This document shows positions 16,173 through 64,000 of a stretch of DNA of 64,000 bases, piece after piece. The translations under genes were made by a program, and so were the position numbers. Each line of letters begins with the position of its first letter. The stretch's first letter is position 1. The notes below the pieces were generated by a model. It was not told the DNA's origin. It made no database searches and was given only the letters and a program-made list of their open reading frames with translations. Origin of the DNA: Polytrichum commune (lineage: Eukaryota > Streptophyta > Polytrichopsida > Polytrichales > Polytrichaceae); NCBI GenBank assembly GCA_950295325.1, contig OX485803.1, positions 51,475,554-51,539,553 on the forward strand, written 5' to 3'.

Positions 16173-17453
16173 TTAGAGTTTTAATATGGATCGCTCTAGG
16201 CTCCTGCCTATATGGCGGGCTGTAGCAGGACGGACTCCATGTTGATGAGCACGGCCATGCTTGTGACATTGGCGACAAATCTTATGGTCGCAATTGAACA
16301 CCGACTTTGCATCCATCTCAATGTCCATGACCCTCCGAATGTCTCCCACCTGATCCCCAATCTTCAAGCTTTTCGATGTGAAGGTGCCCACCATCTTCCA
16401 ACCATCCCTCACCAAGATGTGGAACTCGTGGCTCCGGGTGACAAAGATGCGGTCCACCTTGAACATCACGCCTTTCGCCTCCGCCCCATCCTCGCATGCA
16501 AGCATGAAGGCCTCGGCTGTCTTCCTCAGCTTCTTCTGCCGCCACGGCTCCCGCACCCGGAGCCAAACGAAGAACTCACTCAGGTTCCGCTCGTATTCTT
16601 CGACCGTCAAAAACGGCGAAGCTCCGTCGTTCCTCTCCACCAATTTCTCTTGAGGACGCCACGGCCGCCAGCCCTCTTGCAACGGCGTTCGAGCCAGTTT
16701 ACCCCAATCCACATGCTTCCAATTCTTTGGCATTTTCGTCGGAGTCTTGTGCACGACACATGTTTTGTAGGAACATGGCGAGTCCGGTGACCGCGGCGAA
16801 CACGGCATCGGCCTCCCAGACCTCGGGGTACATGGCGACGCTACTTTACCTGCGAGGAAGGTGTGCTTGGCCCCTGCACATGATGAATTTGGCATCGACC
16901 TCCCAGACCTTGAGGACCGCGGTGTACACAATGTACTCGCTGGTGAATGCATGCACTGATCAAACCTTGATTGCGTTGAGCTCGCGGTCCATGGCCTCCC
17001 GGAGCTTGCAGGGGTGCCCGACAACCTCAATTTGCGGCTCGTGCGTGGTGTGTTCCATGTGGGTGAATTTGTGAACTCAAATCCTGCCCCAGTCGGTGAG
17101 AAGTGTGGAATCAACATGGACGCTGCAGATGATCCGCCCCCGAAGTATTGAACGAGAGGCTCCGGCGGGGTTTTGCAGCGTGGAGGCAGGTCGGGCAATG
17201 TTGGTGGTTGGACGCAATACAGCCGTTGCTCCTGTAGCCGTTTGCGCACCCATCGCCCCAACACAGTGTCAGGGGGCTCCTTGTGCAGGCTTTCGTAGGC
17301 CGTGGGGTCGCACACGTAGTGCTTGGTGTGCTCGCCATGCAGGCCCACCATGCATTCGTGAGGGCGGTCCGAGTAGTCGATGATGTGGATCTGAAGACTC
17401 GTGTCTAACGGGCACCCACATGGATCCCACGTCCCATCAAAGGGTTTCGACAT
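16173..17453 (-). CDS. Intronless gene for a 426-residue protein of unknown function
   Basis: A single uninterrupted frame starts at ATG 17453-17451 (MSKPFDGTWDPCGCP) and stops with TAA at 16173. A GTG two codons upstream keeps the frame but is not a plant start. The N-terminal ~100 residues are Cys/His-containing. Residues ~120-235 are Ser/Pro/Arg-rich low complexity with imperfect copies of CTPRSxRSGRxMP. A compact Trp-rich segment follows (about 245-385: WKHVDWGKL, GWRPWRP, EFFVWLRVREPWR, HILVRDGWKMVGTF). Next comes a Cys/His cluster, CDHKICRQCHKHGRAHQH (388-405), that could bind a metal. The frame is far richer in G+C than its flanks, and long readings in other frames follow from that. 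I do not recognise the family. The open length, ordered composition and absence of stops argue for a real gene or recent copy; lack of introns allows a retrocopy. Confidence 0.7.
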   Translation of the reverse strand: MSKPFDGTWDPCGCPLDTSLQIHIIDYSDRPHECMVGLHGEHTKHYVCDPTAYESLHKEPPDTVLGRWVRKRLQEQRLYCVQPPTLPDLPPRCKTPPEPLVQYFGGGSSAASMLIPHFSPTGAGFEFTNSPTWNTPRTSRKLRLSGTPASSGRPWTASSTQSRFDQCMHSPASTLCTPRSSRSGRSMPNSSCAGAKHTFLAGKVASPCTPRSGRPMPCSPRSPDSPCSYKTCVVHKTPTKMPKNWKHVDWGKLARTPLQEGWRPWRPQEKLVERNDGASPFLTVEEYERNLSEFFVWLRVREPWRQKKLRKTAEAFMLACEDGAEAKGVMFKVDRIFVTRSHEFHILVRDGWKMVGTFTSKSLKIGDQVGDIRRVMDIEMDAKSVFNCDHKICRQCHKHGRAHQHGVRPATARHIGRSLERSILKL

Positions 17454-18504
17454 GACCACTTGTTGACATTAAAATCACGCAAATTAATTTTTGCGGGCCT
17501 CACTGATGATCATGGTGAACATCAATCTTTCAACACCAGGTCTTTCAAAACCATCAACCATGGACGATGGCACTCAATGAGCAACTCGATGTCATGCGAT
17601 AATGACATACAACTGTAGGCAATTACTTGTATGTCTTCAAGACGAGTTGATTCACACAAAAAACTCGGGGATTGATGTGGTAATTGATGCAAAAACCATG
17701 AGATGACATGTGGCAGGTCCAATGTTCATATGGTATGATTGCATCATGCACGTATTCATGATAATCAGGGAATCACATCTCAGTGAAAGTTGCACGGTGC
17801 GGTAAAGTTTGGGGTGGTGGCATAACCAAAATGATGCAAAGTAATGGACAAATTCGTATCTCTGCCAGATTGCGGGTTGTCATTCAACCAGAAAACACAA
17901 GCGAAGGAGGGAGAGAGAAAACAGTGTCTGTTGGTTTGAGTGAGAGATACTTCACCCACGATGAAAACCGCAAATTTGAATGTAAACCCAATTGCGGGTT
18001 TACGGAACGTACTCCCCAAAACACACACTACTTATCGTACCTGCTCTTAAATGACCAGACCGGATTCCAAAGTATAAAAGGATTGCGTGGCCACGCGAGT
18101 CGCGAGCTGCTTCTGTATTCGCCCACGCCGCTGCCCATGGCAGATTAAATTCATGACAAGTCCGAAAGCCGTGAGCTCGATTGGCTGCTTGCTGGCTGAC
18201 AACAGCAAAACTTCACGAGCAGCAAAGACAAAGCCTGCGGCCATGCATGGACCTACCTAACTTAGGGTATGTGGCGCCAAATGAAACTCCACTCACGCAG
18301 GGAAATCGGTGACAGGTAAAGCCATAGAGTATCATGATCCATCTCTGACGGACAATGTCTGTGCACTGGGCTCAACCCAACTGCCTATCAAACCACTGGC
18401 TTTTGCAGTTACAATAGTAGTATGGAGTCGGATGATCTAGGCCTTTCGGTGTACTCTGTTTTTGTTTCTGTTTTTAGACAACTTCAGCCCTGCACAATTA
18501 TCAG
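17454..18504. other. Upstream flank of the 16-17 kb gene
   Basis: This is the 5' side of the minus-strand gene. A plus-strand frame at 17783-18148 has no recognisable domain. A TATA-like TATAAAAG sits at about 18074-18081 on the plus strand, with no convincing gene downstream, so I do not call a promoter. Confidence 0.3.
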
Positions 18505-28934: not shown

Positions 28935-29304
28935 CTACACTAATATTTAATGTCATTATGGTAACTTTTAAAATGACACTTCTTATGAATAAGTCAACAA
29001 ATATCAATGTGGATGATGGATGAGTTCATCCATTGGCCAAACCCTACTTTCTCTTGTCAGCAACTTGGGATGAGATATTTTCATGGATGATTGAAATTTG
29101 GGTGAAAAATCACTTGGTAAGTGACAATAATTGCAACACTGTAAATCTATAATCCCCCCCCCCCCAATTTTTTTTAAACAAGGAATGACAAATAATGTGG
29201 GTTAAGCATTTAGTGTTGGTGACACTATACTGTGGTTTACAGTTACCACTGAGCAAGACAATTAGAATTGGTGATACTAAATATCATATTTAGCATAGTT
29301 ACCA
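28935..29304. mobile_element. MITE family A, copy 1 of 3
   Basis: It shares an ordered set of blocks with 40565-40917 and 48080-48428: ATGACACTTCTTATGA, ATGGATGAGTTCATCCATTGG, AATCACTTGGTAAGTGACA, GGAATGACAAATAATG, TTGGTGACACTA. The ends are rich in inverted ACACTAAATAT-type sequence. This copy has an internal C12 tract (29154-29165) absent from the others. Confidence 0.75.
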
Positions 29305-31012: not shown

Positions 31013-31336
31013 CACTAATAGAAAACTATGCCAAAAAAACTCGTAGTCGAAATTGGCTTACTAGCATGATCTGTAGTCACTAAACAACTATAAATTGCTT
31101 ATTTGGGTTTAGCGAGAGTAATTTAAATAAAATTTGGGTCGTGTAATAATCCATTGGAAAGGCCTTGAAAATACCTTTCCAACGGTGAATCAAACACCCC
31201 AAATGTTTAGAATTGCAATAGCAAAAATAAAAAAATAAAAAAATCTGTAGTCATTTAACGACTGCAAATCAGGCTGGTCAAAAGAACCACAACCGATTTT
31301 GGCTCTGATTTTTTTGGACATAGTTGTCTATTAATG
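31013..31336. mobile_element. CACTA-type foldback MITE, copy 1 of 3
   Basis: It begins CACTAATAGAAAACTATGCC and ends with the inverted counterpart ...CATAGTTGTCTATTAATG. It is flanked by a perfect 3-bp duplication ATG/ATG (31010-31012 and 31337-31339), the length expected for CACTA (En/Spm) transposons. Long inner arms (TGTAGTCACTAAACAAC... / ...CATTTAACGACTGCA) pair, so the 324 bp folds on itself. There is no coding capacity. Confidence 0.88.
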
Positions 31337-33001: not shown

Positions 33002-34049
33002 TCAACACCTATCATAATCATTTTTTTCCTTTGCATCATAATCTATGTACGGATTGCAAACCAACCATCGGGACCTATGAGGAACTGGTGTCAAGGTTGT
33101 TGCCATAACCTTAGCTGCACAACTTGCATACATAGGGAGCTTCACCAAACTAATAGGTGATGTGGCTTCTTCTACTATGATTCTACTAACATTGAATCTA
33201 AAAGTTAAATTATGGAACCAATAGGAGATTGAAATTATCCATAATTGCATCCAAGCCAAATAAAATTTAAATTAAACAACAAAACTTACTTACCAATGCG
33301 TGATCGTTTTGCTATCTTCCGAATAGGTGCATCCTCATCGGAGTGAGATGTAGTCTGAGGCACACTTCCACATATCAAAAGAGGATTAGCTTCGCACAAA
33401 GGTGTTATTATTGCCTTAAATATACTAGGGTCTCCCTCCAATGCCACCAAGTGTTGACTGCTTCAATTACAAGCATGGATAGAAGCCCTTGGAAACCATA
33501 ATGAAAACCACCAATTAGCAAATTGGACTATATCAAACACATGCAATCAAATACTTTTGAATGGTAAGCCATGCTTGTTGTTACTTGTGGATGCATATGC
33601 ATCAAGAACCACATCACCAAGTTTAGTCAATGCATTGATGAAGAGTTCTATGGATTTAGATTTTTTACTCCCTTGCACCTCTCCAATGGGCACCTTTGTT
33701 GAGGAGCTAAGTATTAGTTGTTGTTGAATTGAAAAAATATCTAAGTGGGTCCCACATCCACACCCAACATAGAACTCTTGTGTTAAACAAGAGGCACCGT
33801 AGACATTGCTTGCATACATGTACATTAGAATAAATGATCAATTGTCCAAATTGAAATAACAATGGAAATTAATATAATCAAACACAAAATGAAAAATGTG
33901 AAGTCCATACTGTGAAAATTTAATCAACACCCAAGTTTAAAGGCATTTCTTTGATGCCCCACCAATCCTTCACTATCACAAAATCATAGGTCATCACATA
34001 CCTCATAACATCATGCCTAACTTCTTCAATTTTTGGCAGAAAGACAAAG

Positions 34050-35413
34050 GCAAACGCTAAACCTCCTCCTACAAACTTTCAAGAGGAGGTGGATAGGGCC
34101 CAAGGCCCGCGATCTGACACCTCCGGGTAGCCCCCACAAAATAAATCTAAAATTTTCAGATCCCGACCGAAAACTATTGGCCGCTCCACCCGACTTTGGA
34201 AAATAAAATTACTCTTGCATTCTTGAAGACCGCTTGTCCATATAACCCATATTCAGTGCATTTCATCTTCAAGGTCCGAAATCCAATATATATGTTCACT
34301 TTCATTGGGTAAATAAGCAATTGATTGGCATTTCATTTTTGAAGTAAAACCGTCAATAAAGCATGTAATTAACTTGGAAGTCAAAAATATTACAAAACCC
34401 TCATTAGCACTAAGATTATAAATTTTGTGACTTACCATTGAAAGGGTCTTTGTCATTCTAGTTGGAACTAAGATTATTTTTAATTTTTAATTTGTTTATT
34501 TTATAATAGTTTAGTTAATACCTGCTACTTTCACAAAGTTTTCATACACATTCAAACTAATTAAGACTGATTAAATGTAATTAAGTATAAATGACCGTAT
34601 TAGAAGGTAATTGAACGCAAGGCCTAGGTTTCTGCAAGTATTAATACACATTCGAACTAATTAAGCCCGATTAAGTGCAAGTAAGTGCATTTAGCCTAAT
34701 GAAGCGTAATGAAGCCTAAACAAGTGTAATTAAGCACATCACTCCTCATATCTGAATTAAATCATCATTGATTCTAGTAAGTGCACTTTATAATTAATTA
34801 GGCTTAATTAATTTGATAAGCATACTTTTTTATTTGATTGGGCTTGATTAGGATTAACTAAGATTAATTAGACTTGATCGCATTCAATCACACTTTTTTA
34901 GTTTGAATGTGTATGAATACTTATGGAATTAGAAGGCATTAACTAAAATTTTATAAAATAAACTTACTAAAAATAAAACACTAGTTTTAGTTCCATTTTA
35001 GAATGACAAAGACCCTTTCAATGGTAAGTCCAAAAAAATATAACCTCACTGCTAATGAGGGTTTTGTAACATTTTTGACTTCCAAGTTAATTACATGCTT
35101 TATTGACAGTTTCATTTTGAAAATGAAATGCCAATCAATTGCTTATTTACTCAATGGAATTGAATATATATATATATTAGATGTCGGACCTTGAAGATGA
35201 AGTGCACTCAATATGGGTTATATGGACAAACGACCTTCAAGAATAAAGGGTAATCTTATTTTCCAAAATCAGGCTGAGCGGGCAACAATTTTCAGTCGAG
35301 ATCTGAAAATTTTAGATTTGTTTTGTGGGGGTTGCCCGGAGGTGCCAGATTGCAAGCCTCGGCCCCTATCCACCTCCCCTTGAAAGTTTGTAGGAGGAGG
35401 TTTAGCATCCGCT
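34050..35413. mobile_element. Giant foldback element, about 1.36 kb
   Basis: Arms 34050-34480 and 34985-35413 are near-complete inverted copies (for example GCTAAACCTCCTCCTACAAA at the left, its reverse complement at the right). Complementarity, weaker, continues inward to about 34640/34800, so almost the whole element folds on itself. No transposase is present. It sits inside the methyltransferase-like relic. A single-arm, diverged relative lies at 59950-60220. Confidence 0.85.
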
Positions 35414-35426
35414 AAAGACAAGCATG

Positions 35427-35713
35427 CACTAGTAGAAAATTATGCCCAAAAATATTATAGCCAAAATTGATTGTGGTTCTTTTGACCAGCCTGATTTGTA
35501 GTTGTTAAACAACTAAGTTTTTTTTTTTTTTTAATTTGCGACTCCAAAACTATAAATTTTGGGGCGTGTAATATACCGTTGGAAAGGTATTTCTAAAATT
35601 TCAATCACTAAACCCAAAAATCATGCAGTCCTTTGCAACTGTAGATCCGGTTGGTCAAATGAACCGTAGCCAATGTCAACTGTAGTTATTTTTGGCATAG
35701 TTTTTTATTAGTG
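35427..35713. mobile_element. CACTA-type foldback MITE, copy 2 of 3
   Basis: It begins CACTAGTAGAAAATTATGCC and ends GGCATAGTTTTTTATTAGTG. Flanks are ATG (35424-35426) and ATT (35714-35716), a 3-bp duplication with one change. It shares inner blocks with copies 1 and 3. It is only 13 bp from the foldback element, and its right end touches the interrupted reading frame. Confidence 0.85.
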
Positions 35714-36414
35714 ATTCATGCACCCTTAGGAACGTATGCATCAACAAATTCTAAAAGGGCCTTGATGTAAATGGATGAATGCAAATTCCATTTAGGGTTG
35801 ACATTGGGAGGTGAGGAGACAAATGCAATGGGGAGCCCTCCGGCAAGTTTGCAACAATAAGGTCAAATTTACAACTGCCAAAATATGCGTGCAAAGTAAA
35901 TGGAAACACTTATGAACAAATAATACTAAGAGTGTTGACAAAGAAGTATTGCCTAAGGAATGTAAGCTACATTTTTTAGGATTTCAAATATCTCCACCAT
36001 GATAGGATGTTGGGTGGCCCCATTCTCCAATATCATTGGAATGGATGTGTGTGTACCACCCATGTTCTTAAGTGGAACTTAGTAAATGCAAAACTCACCC
36101 TCCTCAGCCGAAGTCTTCATGAATGTAGGAAGTTTGCTCACTAACATGGACCTTTGGCCTACAAGGCCCGTCTTGAGGTATCTAAGCCATTGAACACAAA
36201 TACATCCCATTGACATTGTAAAGTTGTAACATATAGTGACACATAACACAACAAAGTTGAATCCAAATAATAAAGATGTGAAATGCAAGAAAAATGCATG
36301 AATAGAATACACCATGTATGTAGTGTCACCAAACAAACATTCATGAGGACTAGGAGGTTGGAGACAATGAAGTAGGAGAGCAGCTGAAGCTCAAGGGAGG
36401 AAGACGAAATTCCA

Positions 36415-40564: not shown

Positions 40565-40917
40565 GTGTCATATGGTATTTTATGTCACTATGGTAACTTT
40601 TTGGATGACACTTCTTATGAACAAGTGAACAAATACTATCATGGATGATGGATGAGTTCATCCATTGGCCAAAACCCCACCTTCTTTTGTCATCAACTTT
40701 GTGATGAAACATTGTCATGGATGATCAAAATTTGGATGAGAAATCACTTGGTAAGTGACAATAAGTGCAATACAATCCCCCATAAAATTTACAAGGAACG
40801 ACAAATAATGTTCAGTTAACATTGAGTGTTGGTGACACTACACCACGGTTTACAATTATATCGAGCAAGAAAATTAAAATTGGTGACACTAAATATCAAT
40901 ATTTAGTGTAGTGCCAC
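40565..40917. mobile_element. MITE family A, copy 2 of 3
   Basis: It carries the same ordered blocks as 28935-29304 and 48080-48428. The 3' end contains GTGACACTAAATATCAATAT followed by TTAGTGTAGTGCC, a near-palindrome that matches the inverted start of copy 3. Confidence 0.75.
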
Positions 40918-41874
40918 GGAGGTCGCCATTCAAAAATGTAAATATTTTAAGACGGGAACTCATGCGGATTTGACTTACCATTTAGATGTGATTTTTTTAT
41001 TCAATGTCAAAAACTTGACATGATAAGGAGTTTTCTTCCAATGATCTTGCCTTTATAAATAGATTAGGGACCATTTAATCATTAGGATAGTGGTATTGAA
41101 GTCTTTTTGACCATATGCTAGTTAACACAAACACACATTGTTTTCATGCCTAGAACCTTCCATCGAGGTTCTTTGTGGCTAAGTTATATGTGTATCATCA
41201 AAATCTGATCAAAATCCGATCTATATATGAACTAAATATAGATATAGATTGGATCTATGTAGATATTGTAGGTGCCTATGAGGTTGAGATATATTGTTGT
41301 TCGGCACCCAAATAATGTGTTGTGAAAAATAGATATTTGTGTTTTAGGGTTTAGGACCATGAAAGTTATAATAAAAGTGAGGCACATGCATCAAACAATG
41401 GACTCAATTGGACACCTAGATTTGAGTGATATGAGGTTAGGTGTGGATCTAAGAATGGACACCAAAAAAAGACACATGTTGAAAAGAGATTGAGCTACAT
41501 GCTCAAATCATGCTAACCATTTTAGGTTCAATAATCAACATAAATTGGGAGGGCCTAGATGACTCCATATGAGCACGGGAGTATTCACTTTATTAGTGCA
41601 TAAAATATTCATATGAGCTCCAAAAATTATGCAGCAGTTGGCCAAGGGTGTGAATTGGTTTTGCTAATCATCTTGCATCATACCAAGACTGGGTGCAAAG
41701 AGAAAAGTGTCCTAATTACACACGTCTAGTACCTTGCATTGGTTTTAATTATACCATTATTTTAGTTTGGTGCAATGAATAGACCATTAAGTTAATCTGA
41801 AACTAACTTACACATGAAGTTATTTGTGAGTACGATCAAGATTCATGATTGCATGCTTTGAGATAGAATAGATT
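40918..41874. other. Gene-free stretch
   Basis: No recognisable gene or element was found. Confidence 0.4.
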
Positions 41875-42329
41875 AAGGTAGAAAGACATAAAATGATGAA
41901 TGACCACTACTGGTGCGCTAGACCAAGAGTAGAAGGATTCTTGCGTGGACCCAAAATGGCTAACTATAAAAGTGGTGGTCCAAAACGGATGTAGTGATAG
42001 GTGGGATGCATGATTGGTTAGATACGTGTTGTTTCACACCACTTGCAACCACTTTTGGGTGCCAGTAAGTTAACCGTTTTGCATGCATTCATATGCAGAG
42101 TAGGATGTTTTGATGCTCGAATCAAGGAGACTCTAATGTATAGATAGGGGGTTTGACTTACTTACCTCTTTGAAAAAATGTAACTAATTATTTACATGGA
42201 ATAAACTTATGAAACGACTTGCATTCCTCATCATTTCCTCTACTCCATTTTTGAAAAATACTGCACAAATTTCAAGCCACTAATTCTGTCCAAATCATCT
42301 TATTTTCACCATTTTATGTTTCTCTACCT
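41875..42329. mobile_element. MITE family C, copy 1
   Basis: About 80 percent alike by eye to 46364-46806 over the whole length (GATGAATGACCA, CCAAAATGGCTAACT, ATAGGTGGGATGCA, CACTTTTGGGTGCCA, GTAACTAATTATTTACA, TTTCAAGCCACT). Both copies start AAGGTAGAAA and end TCTACCT, short inverted termini. A DNA-element origin is therefore likelier than a pair of LTRs, although the 4.5-kb spacing in direct orientation would allow the latter. Confidence 0.7.
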
Positions 42330-43787: not shown

Positions 43788-43938
43788 ACACAACATTATT
43801 CAGATCCATAACAATGTTCTGTGGGACTGACAGTACTATATAGAATATTCCCCACATCTATACTAAAATATGGGGAATATTCTACATAATATTTTCAGTC
43901 CCACAGAACATTGTTATGGATTTGAATAATGTTATGCA
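43788..43938. repeat. Compact 151-nt hairpin (miRNA-precursor-like or young foldback)
   Basis: Two arms of 69 bases (43788-43856 and 43870-43938) pair with about seven non-identities, around a loop of about 13 bases. A perfect block of 27 bases centres on ATAACAATGTTCTGTGGGAC. Some of the differences would be G:U pairs in RNA. No TIR-TSD signature was seen. It is either a small foldback element or a candidate small-RNA precursor. Confidence 0.75.
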
Positions 43939-44086: not shown

Positions 44087-44288
44087 TCTCGGGAAGAACC
44101 GGCGGTTAGTTAGTTACAGATGAACCGATTGAGTTTGAGAAGTAAGTGGTTGAATTTGGGGACTTCAGGAGAATTACCGATCATTTTAGAAGAATCTATA
44201 CAAGAATATACCTCAAATGAATAAAGCAAAACCAGAAGATGTCAACATGTAACCGGTTGGATTAAGCATCACTAGGATCTTGACCAAT
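44087..44288. mobile_element. MITE family B, copy 1 (partial, tandem)
   Basis: It resembles the next element over its whole length (CGGGAAGAACCGGC, GATGAACCG, GTCAACATGTAACCGGTTGGA) but lacks the terminal TCTCCCCGATCA. It abuts copy 2 head to tail. Confidence 0.7.
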
Positions 44289-44507
44289 GATCGGGGAGAA
44301 CCGGCAGTTAGTTACAAATGAACCGGTTGAGTTTGAAAAATAACCGGTTGAAGTTCGAGACTGCAGGAAAATTACCGATCATTTCAGAGGAATTTATAGA
44401 ATATACCCCAATTTAATCAAGGAAAACAGGAGGATGTTAAAATGTAACCGGTTGGACTTGCAAACACTCGGATCTCAACCGGTTATCCCCAAAAATCTCC
44501 CCGATCA
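44288..44507. mobile_element. MITE family B, copy 2, 220 bp
   Basis: Perfect 12-bp terminal inverted repeats TGATCGGGGAGA / TCTCCCCGATCA. Inside, ACCGGTT occurs several times. It is the same length as copy 3 at 48472-48691. No coding capacity. Confidence 0.85.
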
Positions 44508-45532
44508 CTGATCTTGACCAACTATATACGCCCAAAAATTTCCTGGGCACTGCACTGCATGAATAGGTCACATGCTAGAAGTCTTATTTGGAGACAATCT
44601 AGAAGGCTCCTGATTTCTCAATGTTTTAGAAGAGATTCAGGTCCTTCTGTCTCAAAAAAAAAAGAAAAAAAAAAAGAGATTCAGGTTGACCAAGAATAAA
44701 AATAAGATGATATGGCGTCATCGCTGATCTTTAGAGAATAAATCCGGTGTGAAATATGGCCAATTCGGGACTCCAAAGAAGGCGGTGATGTAGATTGTGG
44801 CCTGTTTGAGTCACTCAAGGAAGATCCTCCATAGGTTTGTGATACTCCGTTTGAACAAGTGGCATGCCGCATATTTTTCAAACCGATCCTTACACTTGAG
44901 TTAGCAACTCCTCAACACCACCACACATCGAAACGCATAATTTTCTATTTCTCAAAACTATTTATGCTCATCATCCACTACACTATTCGTATGATTTAGT
45001 ATGGCCCGGATTTTCTATCATCGATCTACGTTAATAATTATATTGTCTTCATTAGGATAGCAACTAGAGTGGGTGGCATGGGACACTTGTTGCAATAAGT
45101 AATCAATGCCGTATTGTTTTAACTAACATGGCGCATCGAGTTAAGTGCTACACTTGATGAATATTTGGTGTGCTGTTGTATTTTGGATGGATCTCGTGCA
45201 CACTAATATGTGCAGTTAGGTTGCCTTCGTGAATAGGTTGCCTCTTTACCCATGCAAATTACCTTGGGTGAAAACCAAATCACAAAACTTTGCCTATTCA
45301 TTCATATAAACGCAATATAAAACTAATTTAATTGAATTTCTTGACTGTGGTGAAAATGTTCAAAACAATGTGATATGTCAATAAATTAGCATGGGGCAAC
45401 CAAATTGCACATATCAGTCTAGATTACAACAACTTGCCCTATGTACATATTTGTATCTCTTTATAGCAAATGAAAAATGATATAAAATAATTAGGTTTGG
45501 TTTAGTTCAGTGAATTTATGTCCCACTTTAGG
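44508..45532. other. Gene-free stretch
   Basis: It includes the related copy (about 45220-45480) of the dispersed repeat at 18655-18900, and no supported gene. Confidence 0.4.
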
Positions 45533-45863
45533 CACTCGTAGAAAACTATGCAAAAAGAACCGTAGTCGTTTTTCCATTGCGGTTCTTTTGACCACCCTGC
45601 TCTGTAGTCGTTAAACAACTGCATATTTGTTTCTTTGGTTTACTAGCTGAATATTTAAAAATTTGGGGCTTGTAATATATTGTTGGAAAGGTCTTGAAAA
45701 TACCTTTCCAACGGTATATTACACACCCCACGATTAACAAAATTACAGTCAAAAAACGAGAAAGAAAAATCTGCAGTCATTTAGCGACTACAGAGCAGGG
45801 TGGTCAAAAGAACCGCAATGGAAAAACGACTGCGGTTCTTTTTCGCACAGTTTTCTACTAGTG
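45533..45863. mobile_element. CACTA-type foldback MITE, copy 3 of 3 (best preserved)
   Basis: It starts CACTCGTAGAAAACTATGC and ends GCACAGTTTTCTACTAGTG. A perfect 3-bp duplication AGG/AGG (45530-45532, 45864-45866) flanks it. The two halves are almost exact inverted copies, for example GCGGTTCTTTTGACCACCCT and its complement, with a centre near GGAAAGGTCTTGAAAATACC. The 331 bp is a long hairpin and the least decayed copy in the window. Confidence 0.92.
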
Positions 45864-46363
45864 AGGTTGCCTCTGTGTTTCTTTGTGTAACTTAGTATTT
45901 TGCGTCCCTTTTGTTTTTATGCTCACAACTTGCTTATAACATAAAATCCAATGGAATTGTTGAAGGCAAATTTTGAGGCAATTTGTTGGGTCCATACTAA
46001 AAATATATTAAATTGTGCACTATTTTGTGTCAACCATGCATCAGCATTACCTAATACTAAATTATAGGGAAGTCTACTATTTATCAAAATGCATTCCATA
46101 TACAATCTGACTCTAAGCTTCATCGTTTTCTTTGGAACTCTCTCATTAAATGTGGCGGTAAACTCTCAAAACCATTGAACAGTGGGCCAACAACGATTAG
46201 GCTCGAATTCTTAAATAAAACTTGACAAAACGTAGGTTGCAAGACATGATGTTACTTGTGTAACTTAGGCATGAGTTGGGGATGGTTTGGAAGTATAGAG
46301 TCCCCAAATGCAGTTGTTTCTTTAAGTTTTCTCCTTACTAGCCTCCCATATGATACTTGAGGT

Positions 46364-46806
46364 AAGGTAGAAAAACCAAAAATGATGAATGACCAATACT
46401 GGTGTACTAGATTAGGGATAGAATGCTTCTTATGTGGATCCAAAATGGCTAACTGTAAAAGTTATGGTTCGAAAAGGATGTAGCGATAGGTGGGATGCAA
46501 TGATTGGCTGGAAAGGTGTTGTTTCACAACACTTGTGATCACTTTTGGGTGCCATTGAGTTAAGCGTTTTGTGTGTATTCGTATACAAAGTAGGATGTTT
46601 TAATGCTCAAATTAGGGAGACTTTAGTGTACAAATAGGGGGCTTGTCTTACTTGCCTCTTTGGGAAGATGTAACTAATTATTTACAAGAAACAAACTTGC
46701 ATTCATCACCATTTCCTCTAGTCCATTTTTGAAGAATATTGCACAAATTTCAAGCCACTCTTTCGAGCCAAAGCAACTTATTTCACTCTATCTGTATATC
46801 TACCTT
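46364..46806. mobile_element. MITE family C, copy 2
   Basis: Direct-orientation partner of 41875-42329, bounded by AAGGTAGA and TCTACCTT. No clear target-site duplication was found. Confidence 0.7.
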
Positions 46807-48079: not shown

Positions 48080-48428
48080 ACACTAAATATGATATGATAT
48101 ATAGTGTCATATGGCAACTTTTTGGATGACACTTCTTATGACTAAGTGAACAAATATTGTCATGGATGATGGATGGGTTCATCCATTGGCCGAAACCCTA
48201 CCTTCTCTCGTCATCAACTTGTGATGAAACATTGTCATGGACATTTGAAAGTTGGATGAAAATCAAGTGGTAAGTGACAGTACTCGCAACACTGTAAAAT
48301 CCATAGTCCCTAGAAAAGTTTACAAAGGAATGACAAATAATGTTGGGCTAACATTTAGCATTGGTGACACTATACCGCGGTTTACAATCAGTATTGAGCA
48401 AGACACTAAATACCACATTTAGCGTAAA
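48080..48428. mobile_element. MITE family A, copy 3 of 3
   Basis: The start CGACACTAAATATGATATGA with following TATAGTGTCAT, and the block order, match copies 1 and 2. It ends near ACACTAAATACCACATTTAG. Confidence 0.75.
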
Positions 48429-48471: not shown

Positions 48472-48691
48472 TGATCGGGGAGAACCGGCAGTCAGTTGCA
48501 GATGAACTGGTTGAGTTTGAGGAATAACCGGTTGAAGTTCCAGACTCCAGGAGAATTACCTATGACTTTAGAAGAATTTATAAAATACACCTAAAATTAA
48601 TATAGAAAAACCGAAGGATGTCAACATGTAACCGGTTGGACTTGCAAACACTCGGATCTCAACCGATTATGCCCAAAAATCTCCCCGATCA
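48472..48691. mobile_element. MITE family B, copy 3, 220 bp
   Basis: 12-bp TIRs TGATCGGGGAGA / TCTCCCCGATCA are identical to those of copy 2. A TGGGGAC direct repeat lies a few bases outside both ends, but it is not immediately adjacent, so a TSD is uncertain. Confidence 0.85.
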
Positions 48692-50170
48692 CAGTGGGGA
48701 CCCATTAATTTGGAGATGCTACAAAACACCACCATAGGGTTCCCAAGGTGACACGCATCCCGAAGCATAAGCTGCTTCACATGCATGTATGTATGTATGT
48801 ATGCATGCGTGAAGTCTATGAACTTCGAAGTCACATGAGCTGATTAGACGGGTTGAGTCTAGAACCTAGCTACCAGTGTGGACAGGGCGAAGTTATGTGT
48901 TGTGTAGGTAAAGTAACTCTTACAGCAGGCAAAGTTATGAGCTTGGATGCCAAGACCTCCCAAGTCTTCATCTCCTTGGGTGAGTGTCTGTCTATAAGAT
49001 GGCCACGGCTGCCCAGCTGTTGCATCAATCTCGCTCCATCGCCCACACCATCTCCCCCCAGGTTGCTCTCCCCTCTTCACTTCACATCCAGCACCCTCTC
49101 CTCTCCTCTCCTCGCCTCGCCTCGCCTCTCTTGTTGGCACTGTCGCTCTTTGTTTCAAGTGTGCAATTTGTGCCACTGGGGCTTGAATATTTGCAGTACT
49201 CATGTGTCAGAATTGGGGACTAGATTGAGAGGCTTTGAGACTAGATGAATCTGTGATTGGAGAGAGAGAGAGACAGACAGTGGCATTGGAGTGCGTATGT
49301 GATGATATTCCTGATGAAGCTACTCCATTACTTACCTGGCCTTCTTCGTTCCCTTTCAGGGTGATGTGTGTGTGTGTGTGAGAGTTAGGAGCTGCTGATG
49401 AGTGGTGACAGAACAGCTACTTGGGTGCATTGCAGAGAGTGTGACGACGGATGAGGACAGAGAGAGAAATTAAGCGGGACTCAGGTGACAGACTCAGGTG
49501 ATGCTCATTTCTTTTTCCATTCTGTTGATCATGATAAAAATCCCACCTTTGTACAAAGGCTCGTGGAAAACAGTACCGTGTCAACATGTCGGTCTACAAA
49601 TGTGAGGTAGCTAATAGCTTGCCTTAGGCGGTTCCTGGAGCCAGGCTTGCAATTACGAGTTGCCGGGAGACTGTCGGTTCGCAGACTCTCACGAGCTTCG
49701 TTCGGATATAACAACTGTGTGAAGAAGGTTATCAGTAGTATCGAGGTTTTTGAGCGATTACCCTCACTTGGAGTTTCCGAATCCACGCGTCCCTTAAGCC
49801 TGAGGGTGGGATCTTGATGGCGAATTGGCAAGTGCTAGCTAGAGGTGTGCTCTGTCATCCGAGATATTAGAGTACCTGAGTTACCATCCCCTGGTCCCAG
49901 TAAGAGGATTCCTTTGAGTCGACGAACTAGAGAGCTTAGATATACCTGTGTCTGAGCTTGAAGACTCAGTCCCTTTTGTGATGTATCTCTCATGCAGTAC
50001 TGGGGTTAGTCTGAAGAAGAAGAATCCACGCTCAGAATCATTCCTCTGCTCGAGTTCTTCTTCCTCCCACTTTCAAAGATCAATTTCTCGCATTTCATGG
50101 AAGATGTGGTCCGAGTCCCCATGACCCCACAGCCCTCTGCCGGTGAAGATCACCAGCAAGTCTCGAGAGC
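48692..50170. other. Unresolved region, possibly transcribed
   Basis: G+C is higher than in the MITE-rich flank. Candidate plus-strand beginnings are ATG 49000 (MATAAQLLHQSRSIAHTISPQ, followed by a GT) and ATG 50097 (MEDVVRVPMTPQPSAGEDHQ). A possible terminal exon is at about 50653-50703 (GSSLRSNNKFNDQLIF then stop, preceded by ATGCAG). I could not join these into a convincing protein. The minus-strand frame at 49529-49831 (100 codons) has no recognised domain. Short repeats include (GTAT)n at 48784-48804 and (GT)n near 49367-49380. Confidence 0.3.
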
Positions 50171-61442: not shown

Positions 61443-64000
61443 TCACATGCGGCCTGGACTTTCAGGCGGGTTCGTGGGTATTACAGGTTCGGAATTACAG
61501 TCGAACACTAATAAGGACTCTGCATCATCATCCTTGACCTGCTTCGCTAGGGGTAATTCATCATCACTGAGTGGTAAGGTAGGAGCAACACATTTATAAT
61601 TGTCTTCGAGGTTTCGGAGGAGCTTGACCACTTCCATCATGGAGGGGCGTTTGGTGGGATCGTCACATGTGCACACAATAGCGATGTGCAGAGCCTGGAA
61701 CATGGCTGTCTTGACGGCGATGTTGTTGTACTGCGCAGAGCTTGCAATTATTGAAGAATCTAGAAGCTCCAATGGATCGCCATTACTTCGGACCGTGGAG
61801 CGCACCAAGTCCACGAGGTTGCCACCTTCAACCTCGGTGTTGCCAGTTGGCTCCCTCCCCGTGATCAGTTCCAATAAGATGACACCAAAGCTGTACACAT
61901 CGCCAAGGGTAGTGGACCTCCAAAATTGGCCATACTCTGGGGGAATGTAACCAAACGTACCTGCGCATTAAACTGCGTGAGAAAAGAGCTTGCTACCTCA
62001 TAAAATCATGAAAATCTCATCTGAGCTCAACAAAACCATTGACACCATAATTTTGTATAATGTCTTGGACAAGTTTTTCTTATCATCCATTTTTTGAATT
62101 TAATTATTCTAGTTAACTTCTGAGCCATTCTAGTTAGAAACGACACGTTTTATACGAAAAAGAGATCACCAAATTTGATTACAATCTTTTTCTTTGAAAA
62201 TTTACATGTGCATCGAAAAAGATACCATGTATGTATACTAGTTATGACAACAGATTAATAAAAATTTGTCCCAATTTGATGATACATCGTAGAGGTATTA
62301 CTTTTCTTGTATTTCTCATGTGGTCTGCGTACCTGCGACATCAGTGCTCACGTGGGTGTCATAGGCACTGATCAAGCGGGCTAGGCCAAAGTCTGCAAGC
62401 CGTGGGTTGAGATTTTCATCCAAGAGGATGTTGCTGGGCTTCATGTCCCGGTGAATGACGTGGGGTATAAACATGTGGTGGAGGAAACATAAGCCTTGAG
62501 CAGTGCCAACGATGATGTGCAACCGTTTTGGCCAATCCAACAGGTGGGGTTGGTGACGTAACCAATAATCTAGGCTTCCATTGGGCATGTACTCGTACAT
62601 CAAAAGCTTCTCGTCTCCAAAGGAGCAGTATCCCAACAGCGGAACAAGATTGGCATGCTTCACTTTCCCAAGTGTCTCCATCTCCGCGAAAAATTCTCGG
62701 TCTCCTTGCAATGTGGCGAAGCCCAGCTTCTTAATAGCAACCTATTGGTCCATGCACCAAAAACAACGAGGATTAGTTTCTGTAAACCCTAAACCAACCC
62801 AGTTTCAACACTCTCGTGAGTCAAGAGCCTCATGTCAATTTTGATCAGATTTGTTCTAAATTGCAATAATTATTATAATTTAGAACAAATCATTATAATT
62901 TAGTCTTAATTGTTGTTAATAAATTCCATGTTTTTGATAGCAACATATTGGACCGTGCACCAGAAGCAGTGAGGAAAAGTTTCCGAAATCCTAAACCCTA
63001 AACCCACCAAGTTGCAACAGACTCGCGTGGGATTAGCCCCTTGTGTCAATTTTCATAAGATTATTTAGCATCATATGGTCTGAATTGTCGTCTAAATCCC
63101 AGTTTTTCGATACCGACCTTGTTGGACGCGGGGCCAGAAATAGTGAGGATTGGTTCTAAATCCTAAACCCTAAAACCAAGTTCCAACCAAGTTCCAACCA
63201 ACTCGCGTCAGTCAAGAGCCTCATGTCAATTTTCAGAAGATCATTCATCATTTGGTCTAAGTTGTTGTCAATGCCACCACAGTGCCGATGAATTTATGAA
63301 ACCAATGTGGGAATTATGATTTCCTTACTCTCTGTGGAGGTGGGTGGTCACCGAAGAGTTTTGTAGGAATCAACCCCTTGTAAACTCGACCGAAGCCGCC
63401 CTCCCCAATCAGATTTTGTTCCGAAAATCCGTTCGTGGCTTCAAGTATGTCACCCAATGTGAGCCGCTGCAAAGTTCGTGCGAACGTCGCCACGTTGATG
63501 CTCAAATGCTCCTTCCGGGGAGACCCATTCACGAAATCTTTGGAGCTGTACACGGAGATGGCAAGGTCGGATGAGCCTTTTGAGCCACGATCATCTCCCC
63601 CTGCACATCTCTTATGACAGACCATGATCACAAGCACGATCAAGCATCCCAGAACAAAAGCCGTTGCGGCTGCCATGCCAATGATGAATCCCTTGGCTTT
63701 TAGAACGTCTTTTGATCGAGTTGAGCATATCTTCTTCACAGGACGACCACAAAGGGCAGGGTTGGTAAGGAAGGAGGTCGAATTCATCTTTGTGCAAGAC
63801 CCGGTGTATGGGACCATACCCGCAAGATTGTTGTTGGAGATGTTGAAATCATTTAGGTTCGGGACATCGCACACACTGGATGGAAACTCCCCTCCAAAAT
63901 GGTTGTGCGAAAGATCCAGCGACACCATCTGCCCGAAATTGGCGAAGGCGAGGTTACTCAATTGTCCTGTGAGATTGTTGTAGCTGAGATTGAACGCCTT
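61443..64000 (-). CDS. EMS1/MSP1-type LRR receptor kinase, C-terminal 532 residues (5' end outside window)
   Basis: Exons (minus): 64000-63329 (open at the edge), 62741-62333, 61960-61443, joined in frame by GT-AG introns. The visible protein starts in LRRs ([34 protein letters not shown]), then the juxtamembrane Cys pair ([13 protein letters not shown]), one transmembrane helix ([20 protein letters not shown]), a linker and a complete kinase: [45 protein letters not shown] (RD type), [33 protein letters not shown]. All catalytic residues are present. The wording of [19 protein letters not shown] and [12 protein letters not shown] is that of the EMS1/MSP1 clade (LRR-X), plasma-membrane receptors for secreted peptides acting in anther and related cell-fate signalling. 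A tail of about 50 residues follows the kinase. PSY1R/BRI1-type relatives are the nearest alternatives. Confidence 0.94.
62728..63285. repeat. Three tandem units spanning an intron and the start of a kinase exon
   Basis: Units begin (plus strand) at about 62728, 62935 and 63104, each with ATAGCAAC(C/A)TATTGG-like sequence, a CCAGAA.CAGTGAGGA-like block, CCTAAACCCTAAA and AGAGCCTCATGTCAATTTTCA. The first unit contains the acceptor and first codons of kinase exon 2 (VAIKKLG). The other two are decayed copies of that boundary inside the intron. Confidence 0.8.

Follow-up and report, generated by a model that had tools for sequence, protein, structure and literature searches.

A decayed minus-strand gene, broken by two DNA transposons, that may have encoded a permuted methyltransferase-like protein

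In a window of 64,000 nucleotides, by which we mean the whole stretch of DNA that was analysed, a series of coding-like blocks runs along the minus strand from about 36080 to about 33000. A preliminary description had read these blocks as a decayed gene, and the open frames of the window place every block it named on the minus strand, in the N-to-C order it had given, with stops and a frameshift breaking them. FDLIVANLP (35841-35867), a motif IV-like (beta4) piece that lines up with motif IV in an N6_N4 methyltransferase profile (P 0.02), lies in an open frame at 35754-35909. GGLPIAF lies in a different frame at 35719-35862, and the two frames meet at 35841, the position of the frameshift. After motif IV the open frames read GGLPIAFVSSPP...LLEFVDAYVPKGA (35719-35841), up to a CACTA-like insertion. 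Beyond that insertion and a second one, a beta5/beta6-like block, FLPKIEEVRHDV...DWWGIKEMPLNLGVD, occupies 33923-34048, and the open frame carrying FLPKIEEVRHDV spans 33923-34078. Both SKKSKSIELFINAL and LGDVVLDAYAST fall in the frame at 33550-33837, where a motif X and motif I-like block with SKKSKSIELFINALTKLGDVVLDAYAST (33555-33706) was delimited by eye at splice-like sites that are not phase-compatible. It is followed by a possible 97-bp intron (GT...AG; 33458-33554), uncertain because its removal would not keep the frames on either side in phase, and by a motif II-like block beginning HLVALEGDPSIFKAIITPL (33294-33457), which ends at a G/GTAAGT donor-like site. HLVALEGD lies in the frame at 33289-33462.

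Coding-like sequence may extend further in both directions on the same strand. Upstream, a block beginning VPLKNMGG (35956-36078) is a possible N-terminal part; a single stop codon separates it from the end of 36082-36390, which reads in the same frame. Downstream, part of the open frame at 33005-33271 is coding-like, and IVEEATSPISLVKL... (33005-33197, start approximate) is a possible remnant of the last exon. These two outer blocks gave no match in Pfam, NCBIfam, PHROGs or the PDB.

The same description had claimed two adjacent foldback insertions, and both are borne out by their termini and target-site duplications. Insertion 1 (35427-35713; 287 bp) is a CACTA-like MITE with CACTA termini, flanked by triplets that match at two of three positions. 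Its relatives elsewhere in the window, near 31013-31336 and 45533-45863, each have an exact 3-bp duplication. The copy at 45533-45863 is itself a foldback, with arms 81% alike. Insertion 2 (34049-35413; 1365 bp) is a MULE-like foldback whose long inverted repeats agree at 85% of 541 aligned positions and whose 9-bp target-site duplication is identical at eight of nine positions. Comparison of the flanks identifies the 13 bp between the two insertions (35414-35426, minus strand) as original sequence, within which lies a single copy of the 9-bp target site. A 9-bp duplication together with long inverted repeats is a Mutator-like trait. Insertion 2 shares with Mutator-like (MULE) transposons both the 9-bp duplication and the long terminal inverted repeats, and insertion 1 shares with CACTA transposons its termini as well as, at its sister copies, the exact 3-bp duplications. 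These two class assignments go by the termini and duplications only. Both insertions are ordinary DNA transposons, and no transposase was seen for either.

When the insertion flanks are joined with one copy kept per target site, the GGLPIAF frame runs on into FLPKIEEVRHDV. The joined flanks give an open frame of 92 codons with one copy of the small target site and a frame with one stop with the other copy. Since 13% of 3000 random window sites lie in open frames of 92 codons or more (in any of three plus-strand frames), the length of this frame is weak evidence. The frame contains VPKGA-MFVFLPK, which aligns after motif IV. Splice-like sites are also present: acceptor-like sites precede 35874, 33706 and 33457, and the donor-like G/GTAAGT follows 33294. 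In a check of phase, four candidate GT-AG pairs were considered for the gap from the motif I block to the motif II block, and all of them disrupt the reading frame. Between motif II and the last block, the strong GGTAAGT donor agrees in phase with none of the three acceptors considered, and a weaker one at 33290 agrees with them. Ahead of the motif I block, acceptor 33706 suits neither of the two donors considered, and acceptor 33693 is in phase with one of them. In-phase alternatives were thus found for two introns and not for the motif I/II intron, and the idea that the predicted introns are clean failed for the donor-acceptor pairs first chosen. A decayed gene may have gathered small indels that would explain the mismatch of phase. 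The blocks probably belong to a single gene, and that gene probably had a multi-exon structure.

The C-terminal blocks were compared with known protein families. For the motif I block, the sole Pfam family found was N6_N4_Mtase (PF01555), with an E-value of 0.13 for the whole frame (covering profile positions 165-191 of 221) and 0.04 when trimmed. The first 158-residue join of the blocks gave E 0.21 and the joined C-terminal half E 0.14 against the same family. No query reached the curated cut-off for PF01555 (11.9 to 14.3 bits vs 26.7), and neither the 174-residue join nor the N-terminal 92 residues matched any Pfam family. An NHase_alpha match to the block at 33289-33462 (Pfam E 0.2 and 0.27) was treated as chance. 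Eight pieces gave no match in NCBIfam, and PHROGs returned three weak matches only, all to families of unknown function. Among the pieces searched against the PDB, two had five and four matches (E 0.48 or worse), none of them a methyltransferase, and two others had no match.

For more sensitive comparison, three N6_N4 profiles were built from bacterial, archaeal and phage members. The first kept 68 of 80 sequences, the second 77 of 131 full-length sequences (from 162 matches) and the third, broader profile 100 of 213 full-length sequences (from 223 matches). By hhalign, the motif X-I-II half aligned to N6_N4 with P 3.2e-5 and a probability of 73%; the alignment spans 55 columns and has one gap, of one residue. 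This query was joined by hand over the possible intron with one X, at a junction that does not keep phase, so that the spacing of motifs X-I-II is approximate. Taken singly, the motif X-I block reached P 2.3e-5, and P 0.13 was obtained for the motif II block. Control profiles were prepared for MT-A70 (14 of 15 loci), MTS (PF05175; 28 of 30) and UPF0020 (only 5 of 30). Against MT-A70, represented by 14 bacterial members, the C-terminal half gave P 0.3 and the N-terminal half P 0.068, with no Pfam match to the family, and against the 28 MTS sequences the C-terminal (motif I) half gave P 0.44. The five-sequence UPF0020 profile, too thin for use, gave P 0.18 for the N-terminal and 0.081 for the C-terminal half. 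As judged by these profiles, the C-terminal half prefers N6_N4 over MT-A70 and MTS.

The N-terminal half aligned to N6_N4 in the correct place and order, with P about 0.02 by hhalign. In the second profile this match runs through motif IV, and in the third through the beta5-like VDAYVPKGA-MFVFLP. Inside the whole join, the N-terminal matches have P 0.077 (second profile) and 0.04 (third profile). Because the N-terminal half rests on short matches, the permuted order is weakly based. Nevertheless, an order with motif IV before X-I-II fits the order of the blocks and would be the likeliest one. The motif reading first proposed for the locus thus holds for the X-I-II half, which is like N6_N4_Mtase, and is weak for the NLP piece taken as motif IV. 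Similarly, the proposed beta-class order agrees with the arrangement of the blocks, while the motif IV half reaches only P about 0.02 and is closer to MTS.

We slightly favor the view that the locus is a pseudogene of a multi-exon gene for an S-adenosylmethionine-dependent methyltransferase-like protein, most likely of the permuted (beta-class) type. The protein probably had a methyltransferase fold, probably in permuted form, and any substrate would probably have been an amino group of DNA or RNA. In this model the first half would carry motif IV and the second half motifs X-I-II. If N6_N4 enzymes are a guide, S-adenosylmethionine would have been bound by the second half and the target amino group held by the first. 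The gene is dead, disabled by the stops, the frameshift and the insertion, 13 bp apart, of the MULE-like foldback and the CACTA-like MITE.

An unlikely reading, yet one with real weight, is that the exons come from a different kind of decayed gene, or that the blocks are partly non-coding, and that the likeness is a chance one picked from 64 kb by an expert eye. Every Pfam match is below the curated cut-off, the 174-residue join has no Pfam family, the PDB matches include no methyltransferase, and the splice junctions that were picked do not keep phase. Ranked against all 2164 stop-to-stop segments found in the window, the motif I block came second, first and first with the three profiles (window-wide E 2.3, 0.094 and 0.22 for the first, second and third profile). 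Chance is favored by the first profile, which put another segment above the motif I block. It is disfavored by the other two, in which this block tops all segments, and by an order of blocks that is consistent with one family. The joined sequence was also scored against controls. Under the second profile its score is 29.5; one of 300 shuffles came out above it (30.9), and 300 joins of other segments all stayed below it (best 27.9). With the third profile the join scores 31.2, a value reached by none of the 1000 controls (500 shuffles, best 30.4; 500 joins of other segments, best 26.4). When the two best collinear matches to the third profile are summed, the score is 48.8, compared to control bests of 42.0 (shuffles) and 35.5 (joins). 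These control results are biased as probabilities, because the blocks had been picked beforehand for their methyltransferase likeness.

If the likeness is real, the ancestor might still not have been an enzyme. We regard it as improbable that the locus is a pseudogene of a methyltransferase-like pseudoenzyme, that is, of a scaffold rather than a catalyst whose motif IV already read NLP and which lacked a target-recognition domain. Motif IV here reads FDLIVANLP and is then cut by the frameshift. NLP stands where PPY is expected and no motif of the D/N/S-PP-Y type is present, and decay may have changed the motif. One decayed copy cannot tell an ancestral loss of the motif from later decay, and by a simple pattern search 67 of the 100 members of the third profile have DPPY or SPPY, while 33 also lack an exact D/S/N-PPY. 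Additionally, there is little coding-like sequence between the VI-like end at 33923 and about 33706, and no target-recognition domain is evident there. That scarcity would suit a pseudoenzyme, but a recognition domain may equally have been lost or lie elsewhere.

A permuted methyltransferase pseudogene can be compared with several known systems. Similar to the locus, N6_N4_Mtase (PF01555), known from bacteria, archaea and phages, is alike in the X-I-II half, and the order of the blocks is consistent with its motif IV coming first. The locus differs from this family in scoring under its cut-off, in having NLP for PPY, in its probable introns and in having no evident target-recognition domain. 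Among eukaryotes, the accessible portions of PMC8885841 describe N4CMT of bdelloid rotifers as a permuted N6_N4 enzyme with introns, SPPY and a chromodomain, and state, in 2022, that it had no eukaryotic homologues. From this description, N4CMT would share with the locus the permuted N6_N4 type, the eukaryotic setting and the introns, as far as these are rightly read here, and differs in having SPPY and the chromodomain. METTL4-like members of MT-A70 (PF05063) are likewise described there as permuted (PMC8885841); they would be alike in order, and neither half of the locus matches MT-A70 well.

The Marchantia enzymes MpDN4MT1a/b offer a comparison within land plants. In the parts of the two reports accessible to us, they are described as 4mC methyltransferases (PMC8566409) acquired from bacteria (PMC12344493). 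As 4mC methyltransferases of bacterial origin, they would by description share with the locus a land-plant setting. It is very unlikely, in our view, that the locus is a decayed relative of these N4-cytosine methyltransferases: their existence as land-plant enzymes of bacterial origin (PMC8566409, PMC12344493) and the N6_N4-like C-terminal half seen here both point that way, but the likeness to them is by description alone. Least probable of all is a decayed non-permuted Rossmann methyltransferase with rearranged exons, which draws on the motif IV-like piece being closest to MTS (P 0.0019, the best of four profiles) and is opposed by the P of only 0.44 between MTS and the motif I half, by the placement of all blocks on one strand and by the finding of no rearrangement beyond the two insertions.

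Returning to the permuted methyltransferase-like pseudogene, a further and more tentative proposal concerns its family. It is possible, if doubtful, that the gene derives from a eukaryotic family, so far undescribed, whose members are permuted proteins resembling amino-methyltransferases. Such a family would have a motif IV of the N-L-P-x-G type, would have a small target-recognition domain or none, would be separate from MT-A70 and (by description) from N4CMT and DN4MT, and would survive as intact members in related organisms. This claim of a new family hinges on such intact relatives. If there were a further permuted family beside N4CMT and the Marchantia enzymes as these are described, it might offer one more way in which 4mC, 6mA or a mark on RNA is made. 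By itself the decayed locus shows no activity, and its worth is as a probe for intact relatives. No plant family with these features is described in the literature searched, which included PMC12695648 and PMC11065753 in their accessible parts and was drawn mostly from outside subscription journals.

Relatives were also sought in sequence collections. Pattern searches gave nine hits in a viral contig collection and 92 in prokaryote genome contigs, none of which was confirmed. Three hand-written degenerate patterns, run against the viral contigs, gave one hit; it lay in a 639-aa virus frame and was set aside as, by eye, no methyltransferase. The plasmid and phage collections held no relative by tblastn at E 10. 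These searches are of the close-relative type and cover prokaryote and virus DNA, and so have little bearing on eukaryotes. Within the window, a Pfam scan at E 0.01 of 27 of the 41 frames of at least 100 aa found no transposon protein, only kinase-type families; these longer frames therefore give no hint of a transposon-borne gene. In the window, no Rfam family reached its gathering score.

Protein kinase exons lie on the minus strand at 61443-61967 and 62316-62741, with a best Pfam match to PK_Tyr_Ser-Thr (E 4.6e-26); by general resemblance they would be of the receptor-like type, and they make a plant source of the window plausible. Also on the minus strand, a 431-aa open frame (16173-17468) lies in the 2-kb stretch where the GC content of the window is highest; it has no Pfam family above cut-off, the best being zf-RING_4 (E 0.072). 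The window further contains several repeats. A dispersed direct repeat is present in three copies 79 to 82% alike (28943-29299, 40570-40912 and 48092-48405), and two direct repeat pairs are 82% alike (41874-42305 and 46363-46783) and 87% alike (44288-44508 and 48472-48692). Lastly, a near-palindrome of 148 bp (43789-43936; 87%) is possibly another foldback element.
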